This document shows, in pieces, positions 4,646 through 58,946 of a stretch of DNA of 64,000 nt. The stretch lies in assembly GCF_028368935.1 (NCBI RefSeq), contig NZ_JAQNDK010000001.1:2356001-2420000 (forward strand), in the 5' to 3' direction. The notes under the pieces are model-generated. The model saw only the letters and a program-made list of their open reading frames with translations. It made no database searches and had not been told where the DNA came from. A program made the position numbers and the translations under genes. The stretch is from Sorangium aterium. Its GTDB lineage: Bacteria; Myxococcota_A; Polyangia; Polyangiales; Polyangiaceae. Numbering within the stretch: position 1 is the stretch's first letter; each line of letters opens with the position of its first letter.

Positions 4646-6013
<1,368 letters not shown>

Positions 6014-6069
6014 CGACCGAGAGGCCCGTCAAACCATGCCACCCTACCCGGTGTGGGGGCGTGATCCAC

Positions 6070-6231
6070 ATGACCTCCAGGCGGCTCCGCCGTCGCACCG
6101 ACGGGCCCGGCGGTCGAGAGATTCCCCTGGATCCGGAGCGCCCCAGGATCGTCGTATCAGAGCTGCTGCATCAGTTCGACCCTGACGGTCAGGCCCTGTT
6201 CCTCGTGGAGTTTCACCGCAATACCGGATGA
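6070..6231 (+). CDS. Possible small protein, 53 aa
   Basis: The short frame 56 bp after the activator gene encodes MTSRRLRRRTDGPG... ending IVVSELLHQFDPDGQALFLVEFHRNTG. The second half reads like a folded peptide rather than a random GC-rich frame, but there is no good ribosome site and no recognised family. A GTG at 6061 is an alternative start. Confidence 0.3.
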   Translation: MTSRRLRRRTDGPGGREIPLDPERPRIVVSELLHQFDPDGQALFLVEFHRNTG

Positions 6232-8044: not shown

Positions 8045-8074
8045 GCGCTCGGCCTTGAGCGTCGCATGATGAAC

Positions 8075-8100
8075 GCGCGCGGGATGTCCATCCCGCGCGC
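8075..8100 (+). terminator. Hairpin after the xylanase gene
   Basis: A perfect 11-bp stem (GCGCGCGGGAT / ATCCCGCGCGC) with a 4-nt loop lies 31 bp past the stop codon. There is no T-run, so it may be a weak terminator or an mRNA-stabilising hairpin. Confidence 0.5.
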
Positions 8101-8687
8101 CACGTGCCCGGACTTCTTCAGCCCCGGGCACGACTCCCCCCACCCATCTGGCAGACACGCGGAGCAGGCTCGAGCGGCTGGCGGCCGCCGTCGCCGATCG
8201 CTCTCGCTCGCACCGCATCGGGCGCGCTCAGCTCGCCTGCCTCGCAGGAGCCCCTTCGCCGCTCCCCGCGACGTCGCAGCTCCGCCATGGCGTCGCCAAC
8301 CATCGGCGGCGCGAGGGGCGTCGCCCGCGCACGCCCGGGTGTTTGCCTCCCCGCGAGGGCCTGCCGCTGGCCGGCGACGCTTTCCCGAGCGCCTCCGGGG
8401 CGAGGTTCGGGTTCCTTCCGGCCATTCTCGCGGGTATGGTCACGCCAGGCGCCCTGGCTGCCCTCGTCGTTGACCACCCGGCACGACGACCGCACCCTCC
8501 GGGTCAGCCAGGCCTCGGAACAGCAGACCATCGCCCGCGCCGAGACCTCGATCCCCGAACGGGGAGCCCTCATGCCGCCGACCCGACCCCCCCAGGTTGA
8601 CCCCACCCTGCACCTCGGCCCCTCGGCTTCGTCAGCCCTCCAGGCGAGCCTCGGGCCCGGCAAGATCACCCGCCACGGGAGCTTCTG
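8101..8687. other. Intergenic, no gene recognised
   Basis: About 590 bp between two lipoprotein genes. Several open frames exist on both strands but are Arg/Pro-rich GC artefacts without ribosome sites. GGGAG just before 8688 is the ribosome site of the next gene. Confidence 0.4.
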
Positions 8688-54401: not shown

Positions 54402-54920
54402 TCACCCCGAGCTCGCGCAGTAGCCTGCCCACACCTCCGGGATGCGCCGCTCGCTCAGGCCCATGACGGGCGCAGGCGGCAGCCACTTCGGCTTCACCGG
54501 GGCGCGGAGCAGCTTCATGCCGGCCTGCTCCGGCGTACGCCCCCGCTTCGCCGAGTTGCACGCGTAGCAGGAAGCGACGATGTTGTCCCAGACGGTCTTG
54601 CCACCCTGCACACGCGGGATGACGTGATCGTAGTTGAGCTCACGGGCCACCTTCTTTTCGCCGCAGTACTGGCAGCGGAAGCCGTCGCGCAGGAGGACGT
54701 TGAGCCTCGAGAACTTCACGCCGCGCTTCATCCCCAGCGTCGGCCGCTTCAGCCGCACCACCGCAGGCGCCTTGATGGAGAGCGACGGCGACCGGATGAC
54801 GTCGTCGTACACCTCGATGACCTCCACCTTGCCCAGGAAGCTCATCGTGACGGCGGTCTGCCAGGGGATGACCTTATGGGGCACCATCCATGGCGTCAAA
54901 AGCAGCGTCTGCGCGATCAT
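54402..54920 (-). CDS. HNH endonuclease
   Basis: 172 residues. RDGFRCQYCGEKK, ELNYDHVIPRVQGGK, TVWDNIVASCYACNSAKRG form a complete HNH motif with the CxxC...CxxC zinc site. Such stand-alone HNH nucleases nick or cut DNA; their role in chromosomes is unclear. It is the last protein gene before the tRNA array, on the same strand and 60 bp downstream of it. Confidence 0.88.
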   Translation of the reverse strand: MIAQTLLLTPWMVPHKVIPWQTAVTMSFLGKVEVIEVYDDVIRSPSLSIKAPAVVRLKRPTLGMKRGVKFSRLNVLLRDGFRCQYCGEKKVARELNYDHVIPRVQGGKTVWDNIVASCYACNSAKRGRTPEQAGMKLLRAPVKPKWLPPAPVMGLSERRIPEVWAGYCASSG

Positions 54921-54980
54921 GGCCCACCTCTCTATCGTCTCTTTCTCTTCATGACGTCACTCCAGGTTAGACGCAATCGG

Positions 54981-55053
54981 TGCCCGGGGAGGGAGTCGAA
55001 CCCCCAGATGGCTGGGTCTAAGCCAGCAGCGTTTGCCGTTTCGCCACCCGGGC
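54981..55053 (-). tRNA. tRNA-Leu(TAG)-like, short variable loop
   Basis: 73 nt. Acceptor GCCCGGG/CCCGGGC with A73, Leu-like D arm, anticodon stem GCTGG/CCAGC with loop CTTAGAC (anticodon TAG). The variable loop is only about 5 nt, whereas Leu tRNAs normally carry a long variable arm. Identity is therefore uncertain. Confidence 0.75.
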
Positions 55054-55057
55054 AGGG

Positions 55058-55139
55058 TGTCACCGGTGGGACTCGAACCCACATACCCCGAAGGGCGCAG
55101 GATCTCAGCCTGCCACGTATGCCGTTCCGTCACGGTGAC
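55058..55139 (-). tRNA. tRNA-Leu(GAG)
   Basis: 82 nt, class II. Acceptor GTCACCG/CGGTGAC, A73, anticodon stem GCAGG/CCTGC with loop CTGAGAT, and a hairpin variable arm containing CCCTTCGGGG. Confidence 0.9.
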
Positions 55140-55154
55140 GTCTGCGCGACGCGG

Positions 55155-55228
55155 TCTGAGTGGGAGGATTCGAACCTCCAGCCCCCGGCTCCCCGAGCCG
55201 GTGCTCTACCAGGTTGAGCCACACCCAG
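55155..55228 (-). tRNA. tRNA-Pro(GGG), C33 variant
   Basis: 74 nt. Acceptor CTGGGTG/CACTCAG, anticodon stem CCGGC/GCCGG with loop TCGGGGA. Position 33 is C instead of the near-universal U. Confidence 0.85.
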
Positions 55229-55273
55229 AGGGTCTTCGTCGCGCGTCGCGGCGGAGCTGTCGCTCCTCCGCGG

Positions 55274-55347
55274 TCTGGGTGGGGGGATTCGAACCCCCAG
55301 TCCCCGGCTCCCGAAGCCGGTGCTCTACCAGGTTGAGCCACACCCAG
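55274..55347 (-). tRNA. tRNA-Pro(CGG)
   Basis: 74 nt. Acceptor CTGGGTG/CACCCAG, loop TTCGGGA. Very similar to the neighbouring Pro(GGG) gene, suggesting duplication. Confidence 0.9.
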
Positions 55348-55433
55348 AAATCTATCCTCAAGATGGAATTGGCAGGCTCGCCCGCTCGGGCGCGGGCGCC
55401 CAAAGGTGCACGCTGGCGAGCGGAGCGGCCCAG

Positions 55434-55507
55434 TGTCCCCAGCGGGATTCGAACCCGCGCCTCCGGAGCGAAAACCCGGCCGCCTGAGCCTCTAGCGAGA
55501 TGGGGAC
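55434..55507 (-). tRNA. tRNA-Glu(TTC)
   Basis: 74 nt. Acceptor GTCCCCA/TGGGGAC, anticodon stem CCGGG/TCCGG, loop TTTTCGC with G37. Confidence 0.88.
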
Positions 55508-55605
55508 AAGGACACATGATAAGCACATGATCAGGAGAGCCGACCTGCGGCCCGGCGCCGCGACGTCGCTGGCGCAGAGCGCCGCGAGGCGCGGCCCCTG
55601 AAGGG

Positions 55606-55676
55606 AGCGGTGGAGGAGAATCGAACTCCCGTCGCGAGCCTGGCACGCTCGCACTCTACCGTTGAGCTACCACCGC
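55606..55676 (-). tRNA. tRNA-Gly(GCC)
   Basis: 71 nt. Acceptor GCGGTGG/CCACCGC with T73, anticodon stem CGAGC/GCTCG, loop GTGCCAG. Confidence 0.9.
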
Positions 55677-55686
55677 GGGTTCATCG

Positions 55687-55756
55687 AAAAAAAGAGGCGG
55701 GCCGCCGGGCGCCGCGCGCCGCACATCGTGTGCGGCCGCCGGACGGCGGCCCGCCT
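55687..55756 (-). terminator. Strong intrinsic terminator inside the tRNA array
   Basis: On the minus strand a long GC hairpin (outer stem AGGCGGGCCGCCG / CGGCGGCCCGCCT, plus 55695-55756) is followed by seven T. It separates tRNA-Ala(CGC) from tRNA-Gly(GCC), so the array is at least two transcription units. Confidence 0.85.
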
Positions 55757-55854
55757 CGGCAACGAGACGAACGAACGGGCAAAGGGCGCCGTGGGGAGGC
55801 CCCAAGGGGGAACTGCCAAGCGGCATGGTAACCCACGAGCATTGGCCCGTCCGG

Positions 55855-55926
55855 TGGAGCGACGAGGGGTCGAACCTCGATCCCTGCCGTGCGAAGGCAG
55901 TGTTCTCCCGGTTGAACTATCACCCC
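55855..55926 (-). tRNA. tRNA-Ala(CGC)
   Basis: 72 nt. Acceptor GGGGTGA/TCGCTCC keeps the G3:U70 pair that AlaRS requires. Anticodon stem CTGCC/GGCAG, loop TTCGCAC. Confidence 0.88.
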
Positions 55927-55944
55927 GAGCCAGCGGTCCTGGCG

Positions 55945-56040
55945 TCAGATCTTCATCATCGAACATTCATCTCCTTGTCTCCCCACATCCTTTACCTCCT
56001 TGTCCGTTGGACGATCATCCATCGTTCCCATTGGGTCCAT
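55945..56040 (-). CDS. Possible 31-aa peptide in the tRNA array
   Basis: An ATG at 56040 sits behind AAAAAAAGGAGCGTG, a near-ideal ribosome site. The frame encodes MDPMGTMDDRPTDKEVKDVG then RQGDECSMMKI and stops at 55945. Base composition is much lower in GC than neighbours. It lies between tRNA-Trp and tRNA-Ala. No family recognised. Confidence 0.35.
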   Translation of the reverse strand: MDPMGTMDDRPTDKEVKDVGRQGDECSMMKI

Positions 56041-56059
56041 CACGCTCCTTTTTTTGCGG

Positions 56060-56129
56060 CAGGGTGTGAAGGAATCGAACCTTCTCGCAGGAGTTTTGGA
56101 GGCTCCGCCGTCTCCATAACGCACACCCC
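56060..56129 (-). tRNA. tRNA-Trp(CCA), shortened D arm
   Basis: 70 nt. Acceptor GGGGTGT/ACACCCT with G73, the bacterial Trp discriminator. Loop CTCCAAA. The D stem is reduced to about 3 bp (GTT/GAC) with a 5-nt loop, and the anticodon stem has a C-A mismatch. Confidence 0.75.
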
Positions 56130-56133
56130 GAGG

Positions 56134-56205
56134 CGCCCCCGAGGAGGATCGAACTCCCCTCACCTGATCGACAATCAGGCTGCCTCACCAGATGCATACG
56201 AGGGC
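56134..56205 (-). tRNA. tRNA-Asp(GTC)
   Basis: 72 nt. Acceptor GCCCTCG/CGGGGGC with G73, anticodon stem CCTGA/TCAGG, loop TTGTCGA. Only 4 bp separates it from the Trp gene. Confidence 0.88.
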
Positions 56206-56212
56206 AAACCAG

Positions 56213-56337
56213 CGCCGCCGACGGGATTCGAACCCGCGTCATCCAGATTAACGGATAACCGTCCTCCTTCGGCCCGGATCGGGCAAACGGGTGGAGAGCG
56301 GAATGTCAGGTGCTCTACCAGGCTGAGCTACGGCGGC
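56213..56337 (-). tRNA. Interrupted tRNA-like RNA, 125 nt
   Basis: Acceptor GCCGCCG/CGGCGGC, a normal D arm (TAGCTCAGCCTGGTAGAGC) and T arm (CGGGTTCGAATCCCG) are intact. The anticodon region is about 50 nt too long. The 5' stem CCTGA could pair with TCTGG (one T-T mismatch); the 3' side reads CCGTTAA, which would give GTT (Asn) with C33. The inserted DNA carries a hairpin element repeated in the next spacer. Either an intron-containing tRNA, a broken tRNA or a structural tRNA mimic. Confidence 0.6.
56260..56301. repeat. Hairpin repeat, copy inside the interrupted tRNA
   Basis: Shares TCCTTCGGCCCGGATCGGGC with a second copy at 56357-56400 in the spacer just upstream of this tRNA. The core GCCCG/CGGGC can form a hairpin. 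Confidence 0.75.
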
Positions 56338-56356
56338 AAGGTCGGGATCCGAGAAC

Positions 56357-56400
56357 CGTCGTCCTTCGGCCCGGATCGGGCGAGAGAGCGGGCGACGGAG
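56357..56400. repeat. Hairpin repeat, spacer copy
   Basis: Second copy of the TCCTTCGGCCCGGATCGGGC element, between the interrupted tRNA and tRNA-Arg. Confidence 0.75.
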
Positions 56401-56412
56401 AGGGGATCCCGG

Positions 56413-56484
56413 CGCCCCCGGCGGGACTCGAACCCGCATCGACCGGCTTCGTAGGCCGGCCCCTATCCATTCGGGCTCGGGGGC
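56413..56484 (-). tRNA. tRNA-Arg(ACG)
   Basis: 72 nt. Acceptor GCCCCCG/CGGGGGC with G73, anticodon stem CCGGC/GCCGG, loop CTACGAA. Confidence 0.88.
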
Positions 56485-56494
56485 TTTTGCTGAG

Positions 56495-56597
56495 AGCGGG
56501 ACGCTGGAGTCGAACCACGAGAACTGTCCCTCCGCGGCCCGGGAAATCCGAGGCAAAGGGTGAAGGACAGGTGCCATCCACCATGGCGGCGTCCCGC
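56495..56597 (-). tRNA. Interrupted tRNA-Val(CAC)-like RNA, 103 nt
   Basis: Acceptor GCGGGAC/GTCCCGC, short D arm (GCC/GGC stem). The anticodon stem TGTCC/GGACA opens with TTCAC, i.e. T33 and anticodon CAC, but about 30 extra nt follow before the 3' strand. The T arm has only about 3 bp (TGG/CCA) around TTCGACT. The structure is tRNA-like, but aminoacylation is doubtful. Confidence 0.55.
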
Positions 56598-56603
56598 AAA
56601 AAG

Positions 56604-56657
56604 AGGGTGCTTGTGAGCGCCCTCGTCGGACGGACGGGCCGGCGGAGCCCGTCCGTC
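56604..56657 (-). terminator. Terminator of the Ro60 gene
   Basis: Two hairpins follow the stop on the minus strand: a perfect 11-bp stem GACGGACGGGC/GCCCGTCCGTC (56629-56657), then GAGGGCGC...GCACCCTC (56603-56624) followed by TTTTT (56598-56602). Confidence 0.7.
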
Positions 56658-56667
56658 ACGCTGCCTG

Positions 56668-58347
56668 TCACGAGACACCCCGGGTGAAATCCGCCATCAC
56701 CTGGGGGGCCGCCCCGTCGAACCCCACGACATCGAGCATGCCGGGGTCCGTCGGATCGGCGATGGAGAAGCCGGTCGACGTCATTCCGACGACGATCAGC
56801 CGGGCCGGTCGGCCCATTGCCTGCCGGTATTCCCTGAGCGCCTGGAACGGGTGAACGCCGCCCGCCCAGGTCTCGTTGTCCGTGTAGATGACGAACGAGT
56901 CGACCTCTACCCGGTTCCGCTTCGCCCAGACCATCGGCAACGCGCAGTCGGTGCCGCCGAAGGGCAGGCCATTCACCGCGCGCAGCACGTCGTCAAGGCG
57001 CTGCTCCGGCGATATCGACAGCGGCATGAGGCCGGAGACGCCCCCGCCCCACTTGCCGCCGTACCCGCCCGACGCCGCCGAGAAGCCGAGCACGCCGTAC
57101 TCACGCTCGATCCTCGCCGTCGCCATGGCCATGGCCGCGCTCGCCACACGCGGCGTCAAGCCAGGGACGCCGGCGATGGAGCCGCTGGTCATGGATCCGG
57201 AGATGTCGAGCGCCAGGAGGAGCTTCTTCCCCGTCGGCTCGACCGCCCGGAACGCAAGGTAAAACGCCTCGTTCAGCGCGTCGACGACCTCGCGGACCGG
57301 GGTCCATGAGAGCGCGTTGGCGCGCCGGCGAGCGCGCTCACCGTGGCCCTGCTCATAGACCTTGAGGGCCGAGAGCACGGCGATGGGGTGGACCCGGGCC
57401 GCGCGCAGCCGCCCGGCGTCGGTGAGCTGTTGCGCCACCCTGCGGGACGCGTCGCTCATCGGCGAGAGCAGGCCTATCGCGGTCATCTTCCCCAGGTTCC
57501 GGAGCAGCGCTGTCTGAGGCATGTGTTCGAGCAGCGCCTCCCAGACCGCGGGGTCGTTCTTCCACTCGGTCAGGAGCATCTCGTGCGTGAAGCGATGCTG
57601 CCTGATCAGCGCGGTGATCTGCTTGCGGTTCGTCGCCGCGCGGAGCGATTCGAACGCGCGCACCGCGTCCGGCAGATCGGTCATGGGCAGCGCCTTGCCG
57701 CGCGCCGACTCCTTGCCGAGCGCCTCGATGCCGCCGACGATCCAGCGGTAAAGGGCGTCGTGCTGCGGGGTCGGCGCCACCGGGTGCGCCAGCCGCAGGA
57801 GATCGCGGTGGCTGAAGCCGTCGCGCTGCTGGTACTTCATCGCCTGGTACGCGAGCCTGTCGACGGGCTTGCCATTGTACCAGGCGGCGACGGCGGACCG
57901 GAGCCCGCGCCCCCACTTGCGGAACCCCTGCACATCGCGGGCGAAGTGGAAGAGATCCGTCCCCGTGCGGCACACCTCGGACAAGGCCGCGAGGGCGGCC
58001 TGCCGGGTCTCGAGCTCCGCATCGGCGGCGGCGATCGCGAGCGCGAAGATCGCGGGCGCGTTCTTCGGCGCTCGCCCCGAGCCGCTGATGTCGACGATGC
58101 GCTGCACGGCGCGGGGACCGTCCGCGGCGAGGCACGCCTCGACGGCGCGGGCGTTCTCCACCGTGAGCTTCCGCTCGGTCGCGTAGTAGGTCCCCCCCTC
58201 GGCGCCGAGGATCAGCCAGCGGTCGAGCCTCGCCCACTCGTCGAGGGCGAAGGCAAAGCCGCCGGCGCTGTTCTTCACCTGATCGGCGCGGGCCTTCTGC
58301 CGCTGCGGGGTGACCAGCGCGGCGAAGTGCTTCAGATAATCGGCCAT
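56668..58347 (-). CDS. Ro60-like TROVE-domain RNA-binding protein
   Basis: About 559 residues, start at 58347 behind GGAGGTGGTGTG (an adjacent GTG is possible). MADYLKHFAALVTPQRQKAR and QVKNSAGGFAFALDEWARL are typical of the N-terminus of bacterial Rsr/Ro proteins. The HEAT-like ring spans to about 350, including YQQRDGFSHRDLLRLAHP. The vWA domain has a complete MIDAS: LALDISGSM (near 382), GGTDCALPM and YTDNETW. Ro60 binds misfolded small RNAs and Y RNAs and guides exonucleases. It sits inside a tRNA array on the same strand, four tRNA genes upstream and twelve downstream. Confidence 0.95.
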   Translation of the reverse strand: MADYLKHFAALVTPQRQKARADQVKNSAGGFAFALDEWARLDRWLILGAEGGTYYATERKLTVENARAVEACLAADGPRAVQRIVDISGSGRAPKNAPAIFALAIAAADAELETRQAALAALSEVCRTGTDLFHFARDVQGFRKWGRGLRSAVAAWYNGKPVDRLAYQAMKYQQRDGFSHRDLLRLAHPVAPTPQHDALYRWIVGGIEALGKESARGKALPMTDLPDAVRAFESLRAATNRKQITALIRQHRFTHEMLLTEWKNDPAVWEALLEHMPQTALLRNLGKMTAIGLLSPMSDASRRVAQQLTDAGRLRAARVHPIAVLSALKVYEQGHGERARRRANALSWTPVREVVDALNEAFYLAFRAVEPTGKKLLLALDISGSMTSGSIAGVPGLTPRVASAAMAMATARIEREYGVLGFSAASGGYGGKWGGGVSGLMPLSISPEQRLDDVLRAVNGLPFGGTDCALPMVWAKRNRVEVDSFVIYTDNETWAGGVHPFQALREYRQAMGRPARLIVVGMTSTGFSIADPTDPGMLDVVGFDGAAPQVMADFTRGVS

Positions 58348-58401
58348 CACACCACCTCCGGCCCGGGCCTCCGGGCAAAAGAGGACGGATAAAAGAGCAC
58401 G

Positions 58402-58430
58402 CTCGGGTTGATCTCCCAAAGATAACCGAG
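58402..58430 (-). promoter_or_regulatory. Inverted repeat upstream of the Ro60 gene
   Basis: CTCGGTTATC ... GATCAACCCGAG can form an imperfect hairpin between tRNA-His and the Ro60 start. It may be an operator or an RNA processing hairpin. Confidence 0.35.
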
Positions 58431-58449
58431 CACGTTCGACCCGTCCTGG

Positions 58450-58522
58450 GTGGGCGTACGGGGATCGAACCCGCCTCCGCAGGGTCACAACCTGCCCTCT
58501 TCACCAGAAGAGAAACACCCAC
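58450..58522 (-). tRNA. tRNA-His(GTG)
   Basis: 73 nt including encoded G-1 opposite C73, the HisRS identity pair. Acceptor TGGGTGT/ACGCCCA, anticodon stem GCAGG/CCTGC, loop TTGTGAC. CCA follows in the DNA, the only gene of the array with encoded CCA. Confidence 0.9.
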
Positions 58523-58533
58523 GCAAATCATCG

Positions 58534-58606
58534 TCGGGATGGCCGGAATCGAACCGGCGGATCTCCTCACCCCAGATGAGGCGCCTTTCCACTAGGCTAC
58601 ATCCCG
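58534..58606 (-). tRNA. tRNA-Pro(TGG), C33 variant
   Basis: 73 nt. Acceptor CGGGATG/CATCCCG with A73, anticodon stem CCTCA/TGAGG, loop TCTGGGG. Again C at position 33. Third Pro tRNA of the array. Confidence 0.85.
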
Positions 58607-58705
58607 CAGCGCCTGCTCGAACGAGGCGCCGACGCGCCCCCGGCCGGCGGCGAGCCGGCGCCTCGCGTGAGCGAAACGGGCCTGCCTCCCGCGATGGGGG
58701 CGCGG

Positions 58706-58777
58706 CTCCGGCGGGAGGAATCGAACCTCCAACCACCCGCTTAACAGGCGGGCGCTCTACCATTGAGCTACACCGGA
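58706..58777 (-). tRNA. tRNA-Asn(GTT)
   Basis: 72 nt. Acceptor TCCGGTG/CGCCGGA with G73, anticodon stem CCCGC/GCGGG, loop CTGTTAA. Confidence 0.9.
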
Positions 58778-58779
58778 AC

Positions 58780-58862
58780 ATGGAGGCGCAGCGCGCCTCC
58801 ATCTACATCATCCTGGATTGTCACAGATCAGGTGTCCCCCACCGCCGGCGCGGCTGCGCCGG
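58780..58862. other. Two hairpins between tRNA-Lys and tRNA-Asn
   Basis: ATGGAGGCGC/GCGCCTCCAT (58780-58802, 3-nt loop) and GCCGGCGC/GCGCCGGC (58843-58862) are perfect stems in the spacer. They may guide processing. Confidence 0.5.
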
Positions 58863-58872
58863 CGAGGACAGG

Positions 58873-58946
58873 TGGACCCGAGAGGAATCGAACCTCCAAC
58901 CGTCCGCTTAAGAGGCGGCTGCTCTATCCAGCTGAGCTACGGGTCC
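58873..58946 (-). tRNA. tRNA-Lys(CTT)
   Basis: 74 nt. Acceptor GGACCCG/CGGGTCC with A73, loop CTCTTAA. First gene of the array in the direction of transcription. Confidence 0.9.

Follow-up and report, generated by a model that had tools for sequence, protein, structure and literature searches.

The window, meaning the whole 64-kb stretch of DNA analysed here, comes from a genome of 13.5 Mb and contains a Ro60 gene that is enclosed, together with several Y-type RNAs, in a tRNA array. The closest named relatives of the Ro60 locus are in Sorangium. The following features were assigned (positions within the window).

54979-58946, minus strand: tRNA array enclosing the Y RNAs and Ro60, with 13 ordinary tRNAs (ARAGORN)
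55765-55860, minus strand: Y2, candidate further conventional Y RNA (GGGCCAATGCTCGTGGGTTACC ... CTTTGCCCG; fold -38.7 kcal/mol)
56212-56337 (start 56212 or 56213), minus strand: RNA1, a cpY (circularly permuted Y RNA, the name used here for the RNA1-type class) with a tRNA body, from the R1 model and covariation
56254-56301, minus strand: Y module of RNA1 at the anticodon position, from the sequence, the model alignment and the conservation table
56294-56301 and 56259-56266, minus strand: strands of stem S2 of the Y module
56280-56284 and 56272-56276, minus strand: strands of stem S1, with its capping loop at 56277-56279 and a bulge plus GAAG between the S1 and S2 strands
56254-56258, minus strand: TTATC of the Y module
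56342-56410, minus strand: mini Y RNA, without a tRNA body (fold -37 kcal/mol, z -2.96)
56495-56597, minus strand: RNA2, divergent cpY-like RNA, from its fold and a comparison with loci L163 and L047
56671-58347, minus strand: Ro60 (TROVE and Ro60 vWA domains), 559 aa
58380-58450, minus strand: Y1, a Y stem in conventional order just upstream of the Ro60 start (motif GGGTCGAACGTGCTCGGTTATC)
58450-58522, minus strand: atypical tRNA-His-like gene, additional to the 13 tRNAs of the array

The Ro60 protein matches Pfam TROVE (1.1e-42) and vWA_Ro60 (3.4e-63), and its profile matches are D. radiodurans Rsr (2nvo) and vertebrate Ro60 (1yvp). RNA1 and RNA2 lie downstream of it on the same minus strand. 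A strict Y motif occurs only twice in the whole window, both times on the Ro60 strand and within the Ro60 locus. The gene syntenic with the tRNA-His-like gene is called tRNA-His by ARAGORN in L047. At the end of the tRNA array is an HNH endonuclease (54402-54920); such genes are likewise found near tRNAs in phages with Ro genes.

RNA1 has a full tRNA body, including a 7-bp acceptor stem (56331-56337 paired with 56214-56220), a D arm (GCTC/GAGC), and a T arm (GCGGG-TTCGAAT-CCCGT). The anticodon arm is replaced by a 48-nt two-stem module, which reads from 5′ to 3′ as an S2 strand, an internal loop, TTTGCCCG, a 3-nt loop, CGGGC, CGAAG, the other S2 strand, and TTATC. In many relatives TTTGCCCG is CTTGCCCG. 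The second strand of the module carries the Y-RNA motif GGGCCGAAGGAGGACGGTTATC, and facing it is a U-rich sequence of the CUUG type, as is found opposite the motif in Y RNAs. Without gaps, GGGCCGAAGGAGGACGGTTATC agrees at 16 of 22 positions with what we take to be the Ro-binding strand of human Y4. The Ro60 site published for vertebrates consists of a 7-bp helix that has a bulged C and, facing it, a bulge of 3 nt (PMC4726728). A preliminary description of this DNA had noted, at 56213-56337, a tRNA-like RNA carrying extra bases in its anticodon arm; the body, the module, and a covariance model match of 106.4 bits (E 4.5e-28) establish that it is real. The model (R1) was built from 16 relatives with no window sequence in training, and the best ordinary tRNA of the window reaches 44.5 bits.

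The minimum free energy z-scores of RNA1 and RNA2 are -2.2 and -2.3 (that of the spacer at 56342-56410 is -2.96). The fold of RNA1 alone lacks the D arm and the S2 stem, both of which appear in the comparative data. When single copies from Oscillochloris, Desulfonema magnum, and a viral contig were folded without constraints, the cpY structure was obtained. The alignments of 32 relatives (A4) and of 98 cpY members (A6) were made to the model, which makes them lean toward the model structure and inflates the paired percentage. In A4, 98.1% of cells are paired, against 39-48% when slid; in A6, 97.0% of pair cells are standard, against 40-47% with one strand slid by 1-3 columns. Changes on both sides occur in 27 of the 29 pairs in A6, including all seven acceptor pairs and all pairs of S1 and S2, and there are 626 double-change cells (81-108 when slid). 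This excess is not explained by fitting the alignment to the model. Comparing the inserts for covariation had been suggested in the preliminary description, and it bears out the module, with compensatory changes in every S1 and S2 pair across the 98 RNAs. The ends of cpY RNAs are paired as an acceptor stem in 99.4% of cells. Conservation of the columns also provides the bulged C and the GGUUAUC lower stem expected of a Y RNA.

A functional tRNA would have a 7-nt anticodon loop with an anticodon; RNA1 does not, and the Y module is in that place in all 98 aligned members. The distance from the D to the T arm has a median of 75 nt in the cpY class (roughly 25 in ordinary tRNA). ARAGORN missed RNA1 when run without introns; with an intron allowed, it called RNA1 a tRNA with an arbitrary “anticodon”. 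RNA1 might instead be a tRNA gene whose small intron is removed by an endonuclease, with an RtcB-type ligase joining the ends to give a working tRNA, and the genome does contain several RtcB homologues. This would call for a splicing enzyme and a consistent anticodon, and neither condition is met: the tRNA-intron endonuclease family was not found in the genome (no PF01974 match), and the predicted “anticodons” vary by copy (tcc, ccg, cca, gag, cga, cag, ttt, cgt). The supposed intron is moreover a conserved Y module tied to TROVE genes, and we regard splicing to a working tRNA as very improbable.

We examined the distribution of RNA1-type RNAs in 144 genomes of the order, 16 of which have a close Ro60. 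In 14 of the 16, Ro60 is adjoined by a tRNA-like RNA whose anticodon position holds several tens of inserted bases, and in some of these this is so even without a tRNA array. The remaining two (G012 and G030) have a conventional YrlA at that place. Counting full-length R1 matches above 60 bits and longer than a tRNA, 17 of the 144 genomes are cpY-positive, and all 17 are TROVE-positive when divergent TROVE proteins are included; the probability of this co-occurrence by chance is about 2e-16 (ignoring the kinship of the genomes). One genome in which no TROVE protein was detected has a 144-nt R1 match of 56 bits (G059:C165:62766-62909). When the 401-bp region was used as a DNA query against the order, most matches were to tRNA.

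Some genomes contain further copies. A second cpY in the genome that carries the window, on another contig (G000:C6:657141-657276; L153 7142-7277), directly precedes a second, divergent TROVE protein (E 1.7e-8), and genomes of the Polyangium type have a second system similar to it. Another genome has a cpY some 160 kb away from its Ro60 locus, within a second tRNA array (G131:C1:7743090-7743219, L160).

A wider survey covered 160 Ro60 loci, 80 from a genome collection and 80 from viral contigs. R1 matches above 60 bits were found at 42 of the former and 15 of the latter (about 57 of 160), always on the Ro60 strand. The labels of cpY loci include Myxococcota, Chloroflexota, Planctomycetota (Brocadia), Gemmatimonadota, Desulfonema, Thiotrichaceae, Armatimonadota, Actinomycetota, and viral contigs, and individual labels of metagenome-assembled genomes may be mistaken. 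The Ro60 strand carries the strict Y motif 209 times, in 102 loci, and the opposite strand carries it once. Mycobacteriophage Nappy and Rhodococcus phage Trina each have a Y motif near the Ro gene and were not counted as cpY, the R1 match there being weak or absent. Directly before the Ro gene of Trina is a 209-nt annotated “tRNA-OTHER” pseudogene (L324 2637-2845) that contains the Y motif and is probably a misannotated Y RNA.

RNAs shaped like RNA1 accompany Ro60 genes across many bacterial phyla and also in viral contigs. Given the covariation and the distribution, the observation at RNA1 is not due to chance. RNA1 has a Ro60 orthologue as its neighbor, as a Y RNA in the broad sense should. 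That it is a candidate Ro60 partner had been put forward before, and the restriction of cpY to TROVE-positive genomes (17 of 17), the Ro60 strand, the Y motif, and the covariation support that proposal.

The neighborhood of RNA1 contains other Y-type RNAs. An element shared by the RNA1 insert and the adjacent spacer, already pointed out in the preliminary description, does exist; it is the Y module, with the sequence GCCCGATCCGGGCCGAAGGASGACGGTT. In the spacer it forms the mini Y RNA, with capped S1 and S2 as in RNA1 and a third closing stem (GGGATCC/GGATCCC). The mini Y RNA is 87-90% conserved in two Sorangium loci and occurs at the same place in loci of the Polyangium type. The Y1 stem before Ro60 (R2 model match of 27.8 bits at 58386-58443; R2 is described below) is 80-86% conserved in four Sorangium loci and is present in other genera too. 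Y2, which sits between tRNA-Gly and tRNA-Ala, has a match in So0157-2 and a partial match in So ce26; its Rfam match to the nematode sbRNA family RF01656 is weak (18.9 bits, under the cut-off of 38 bits).

RNA2 follows the cpY plan (8-bp end stem, 9-bp S2, GGGCCG...GTTCTC), with a D-like hairpin, the 9-bp extended stem as S2, and a degenerate T arm of about 3 bp. R1 does not match it and thus gives no support for a clean cpY member. It is 90% identical in So0157-2 (L163), lacks its 5′ part in a sister species (L047), and was not found in So ce26. We treat RNA2 as a divergent cpY-like RNA in partial decay among Sorangium strains. Both RNAs had been described as keeping their acceptor stems; RNA1 has a 7-bp acceptor stem and RNA2 an 8-bp end stem, and the tRNA body is less well kept in RNA2.

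Decay through insertion of a repeat had been offered as the alternative to a Ro60 partner, with RNA1 a tRNA pseudogene. The same element does occur in the neighboring spacer, and RNA2, truncated or missing in some Sorangium strains, fits decay in part. RNA1 itself is intact in the window and in four further Sorangium loci, nearly every pair is kept by compensatory changes in 98 relatives, and the spacer element is itself a conserved mini Y RNA, which leaves the pseudogene explanation of RNA1 hardly credible.

We consider it very probable that RNA1 is a bacterial Y RNA that partners the neighboring Ro60 and has a circularly permuted layout, although data on expression and binding are lacking. 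The two ends of conventional YrlA, 5′ and 3′, are paired with each other as the Ro60-binding stem S1, and a short loop on the acceptor stem closes the tRNA-like module. In RNA1, a loop of 3-4 nt caps S1; S1, the bulged C, S2, and GGUUAUC occupy the site of the anticodon arm, and the ends form a normal 7-bp acceptor stem. We rotated the 16 R1 sequences by opening them in the S1 loop and joining the acceptor ends (alignment A3), and from these built a second model, R2, which shares its training sequences with R1. R2 matches conventional YrlAs over the full length of the model, as expected if rotation restores the conventional order of parts, mostly at 45-65 bits (L093-L100), with boundaries within a few bases of the Rfam YrlA match. 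In two sister genomes it also detects the YrlA that adjoins Ro60 (63-65 bits). On conventional YrlAs, R1 yields nothing beyond matches of tRNA length or partial scores (about 15-42 bits), and on tandem ordinary tRNAs R2 reaches about 34 bits at most. RNA1 is therefore YrlA in circularly permuted form, with its parts in true tRNA order, since R2 finds conventional YrlA end to end and R1 does not. It has been reported that the tRNA-like part of YrlA superposes on the three-dimensional structure of tRNA by circular permutation (PMC11472068); the RNAs described here are a natural form in tRNA order. The preliminary description noticed neither that the order is a permutation of YrlA, nor that the spacer repeat is a mini Y RNA, nor that the class is widespread.

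The YrlA copies at L093, L094, and L095 (genomes G040, G002, and G035) exceed the Rfam cut-off and are inside tRNA arrays. No TROVE protein was detected in these three genomes at E 1e-6, despite the conventional YrlAs. One Ro60 locus, L203, has both a conventional YrlA (5958-6082) and a cpY (8071-8193).

The permutation could be a matter of frame only, with a conventional YrlA read across two units, from the T half of one to the D half of the next. Tandem arrays do give matches with both models in alternating frames, and conventional arrays are present in related Ro60 loci. As tandem copies allow both frames, we compared acceptor pairing: for 23 neighbor pairs with differing acceptors, strands match their own partner at 6.98 of 7 positions and the neighbor's at 5.39 of 7 (for example, 7 against 3 in L247, L282, and L242). 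At the threshold used, 49 of 69 loci, including the window, have a single R1 unit, and the capping loop of S1 has a median length of 4 nt across cpY. A mere choice of frame is accordingly quite improbable.

The two layouts can be placed on a Ro60 tree of 97 layout-labelled proteins (64 permuted and 33 conventional), which requires 13 changes of layout, compared with 27.5 when the labels are shuffled. At least 9 changes are on well-supported branches, and more than one switch of layout is thus well supported. The count is approximate because L225, labelled as permuted, is ambiguous and may be a conventional tandem (R2 67 bits, R1 62 bits), and because several tandem loci score with both models. 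A possible route runs through tandem arrays, where, by inference, whichever linker shortens into a loop sets the layout.

For RNA1, the sequence, the covariation structure, the permutation relation to YrlA, and the linkage to Ro60 are observed; its expression, binding by Ro60, and function are inferred. We predict that the RNA1 transcript is excised from the transcript of the tRNA array by tRNA end-processing enzymes, and it may gain CCA. After the discriminator, CC is encoded in 48 of the 98 cpY members and CCA in 18 of the 98, which makes a tRNA-type end maturation plausible without demonstrating it. RNA1 would be bound by Ro60 through the Y module, at its anticodon end. Its tRNA-like body would fill the role that the tRNA-like module has in YrlA, gating Ro60 and offering a tRNA mimic by which an RNA enzyme such as PNPase is recruited or blocked. 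Binding of the module and the mimic role are inferred from published Ro60 biology: the Ro60 ring holds Y RNA on its outer surface (PMC4726728), and Rsr is tethered to PNPase by Y RNA (PMC7790460, PMC8394870).

A more tentative proposal, which we hold to be possible and somewhat doubtful, is that cpY RNAs are matured like tRNAs (RNase P, 3′ trimming, and CCA) and expose a genuine tRNA acceptor end with Ro60 on the anticodon side, coupling Ro60 physically to tRNA-handling enzymes. The YrlA and cpY forms would have interconverted several times, for example through register shifts in tandem arrays, and a tRNA with a Ro60-binding insert may be the original form of tRNA-like Y RNAs.

The same structure is compatible with a tRNA decoy, with the anticodon arm replaced such that anticodon nucleases cannot cut; Ro60 would be mainly a stabilizer, and the complex would protect tRNAs or help repair them. 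Ro60 and cpY are in a tRNA array here, phage Ro genes also occur in tRNA arrays, and a role as competitive inhibitor has been raised for YrlA in Salmonella (PMC7790460). However, there is no nearby tRNA array at several cpY loci (L056, L057, L060, and L061), and there are no functional data for a decoy, which we judge unlikely as the function of these RNAs.

RNA1 as a permuted Y RNA extends the bacterial Y RNAs by a widespread layout that annotation takes for odd or intron-bearing tRNAs. We found no description of this layout in the literature searched, which lacks key work on bacterial Y RNAs, and an earlier description is not excluded. The existence of a form whose parts follow natural tRNA order is relevant to the question of why the YrlA module imitates a tRNA, and natural circular permutations can show which connections Ro60 and effector enzymes need. 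Comparing the two layouts along the Ro60 tree offers a test of how tRNA-like Y RNAs arose.

An Rfam scan of the window at gathering cut-offs gave only ordinary tRNA matches, and no family exceeded its cut-off for RNA1. The YrlA cut-off was not reached (29.6 against 69 bits), and the match spans two neighboring genes. We rejected the weak YrlA matches at 55199-55306 and 56304-56445, which join a T half to the D half of the next gene, as expected for adjacent tRNAs. Like YrlA (RF02553), cpY has the Ro60-binding module (S1, bulged C, S2, and GGUUAUC), the D, T, and acceptor arms, and the gene neighborhood; unlike YrlA, whose ends are paired into the Ro60-binding stem, it ends at the acceptor stem, has a loop-capped S1, and follows the true tRNA order. 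With vertebrate Y RNAs (RF00019) and nematode sbRNAs (RF01656), it shares the lower-stem motif CCGA...GGUUAUC, which in vertebrates we take to have a bulged C and an opposite CUUG; those RNAs have no tRNA body and end at the lower stem. A separate Y-type RNA upstream of a cpY and Ro60 (L207 3758-3826) scores 38.2 bits for the sbRNA family, against the 38-bit cut-off. The acceptor, D, and T arms of cpY, with their conserved loop bases, resemble tRNA (RF00005), and clear cpY members elsewhere are called tRNA by Rfam (L202, L226, and L269 pass its tRNA cut-off), but cpY has no anticodon loop and is set apart by its longer D-to-T spacing. Bacterial tRNAs with group I introns also have an insert at the anticodon position; that of RNA1, at about 50 nt, is too short for a ribozyme core and is linked to Ro60.
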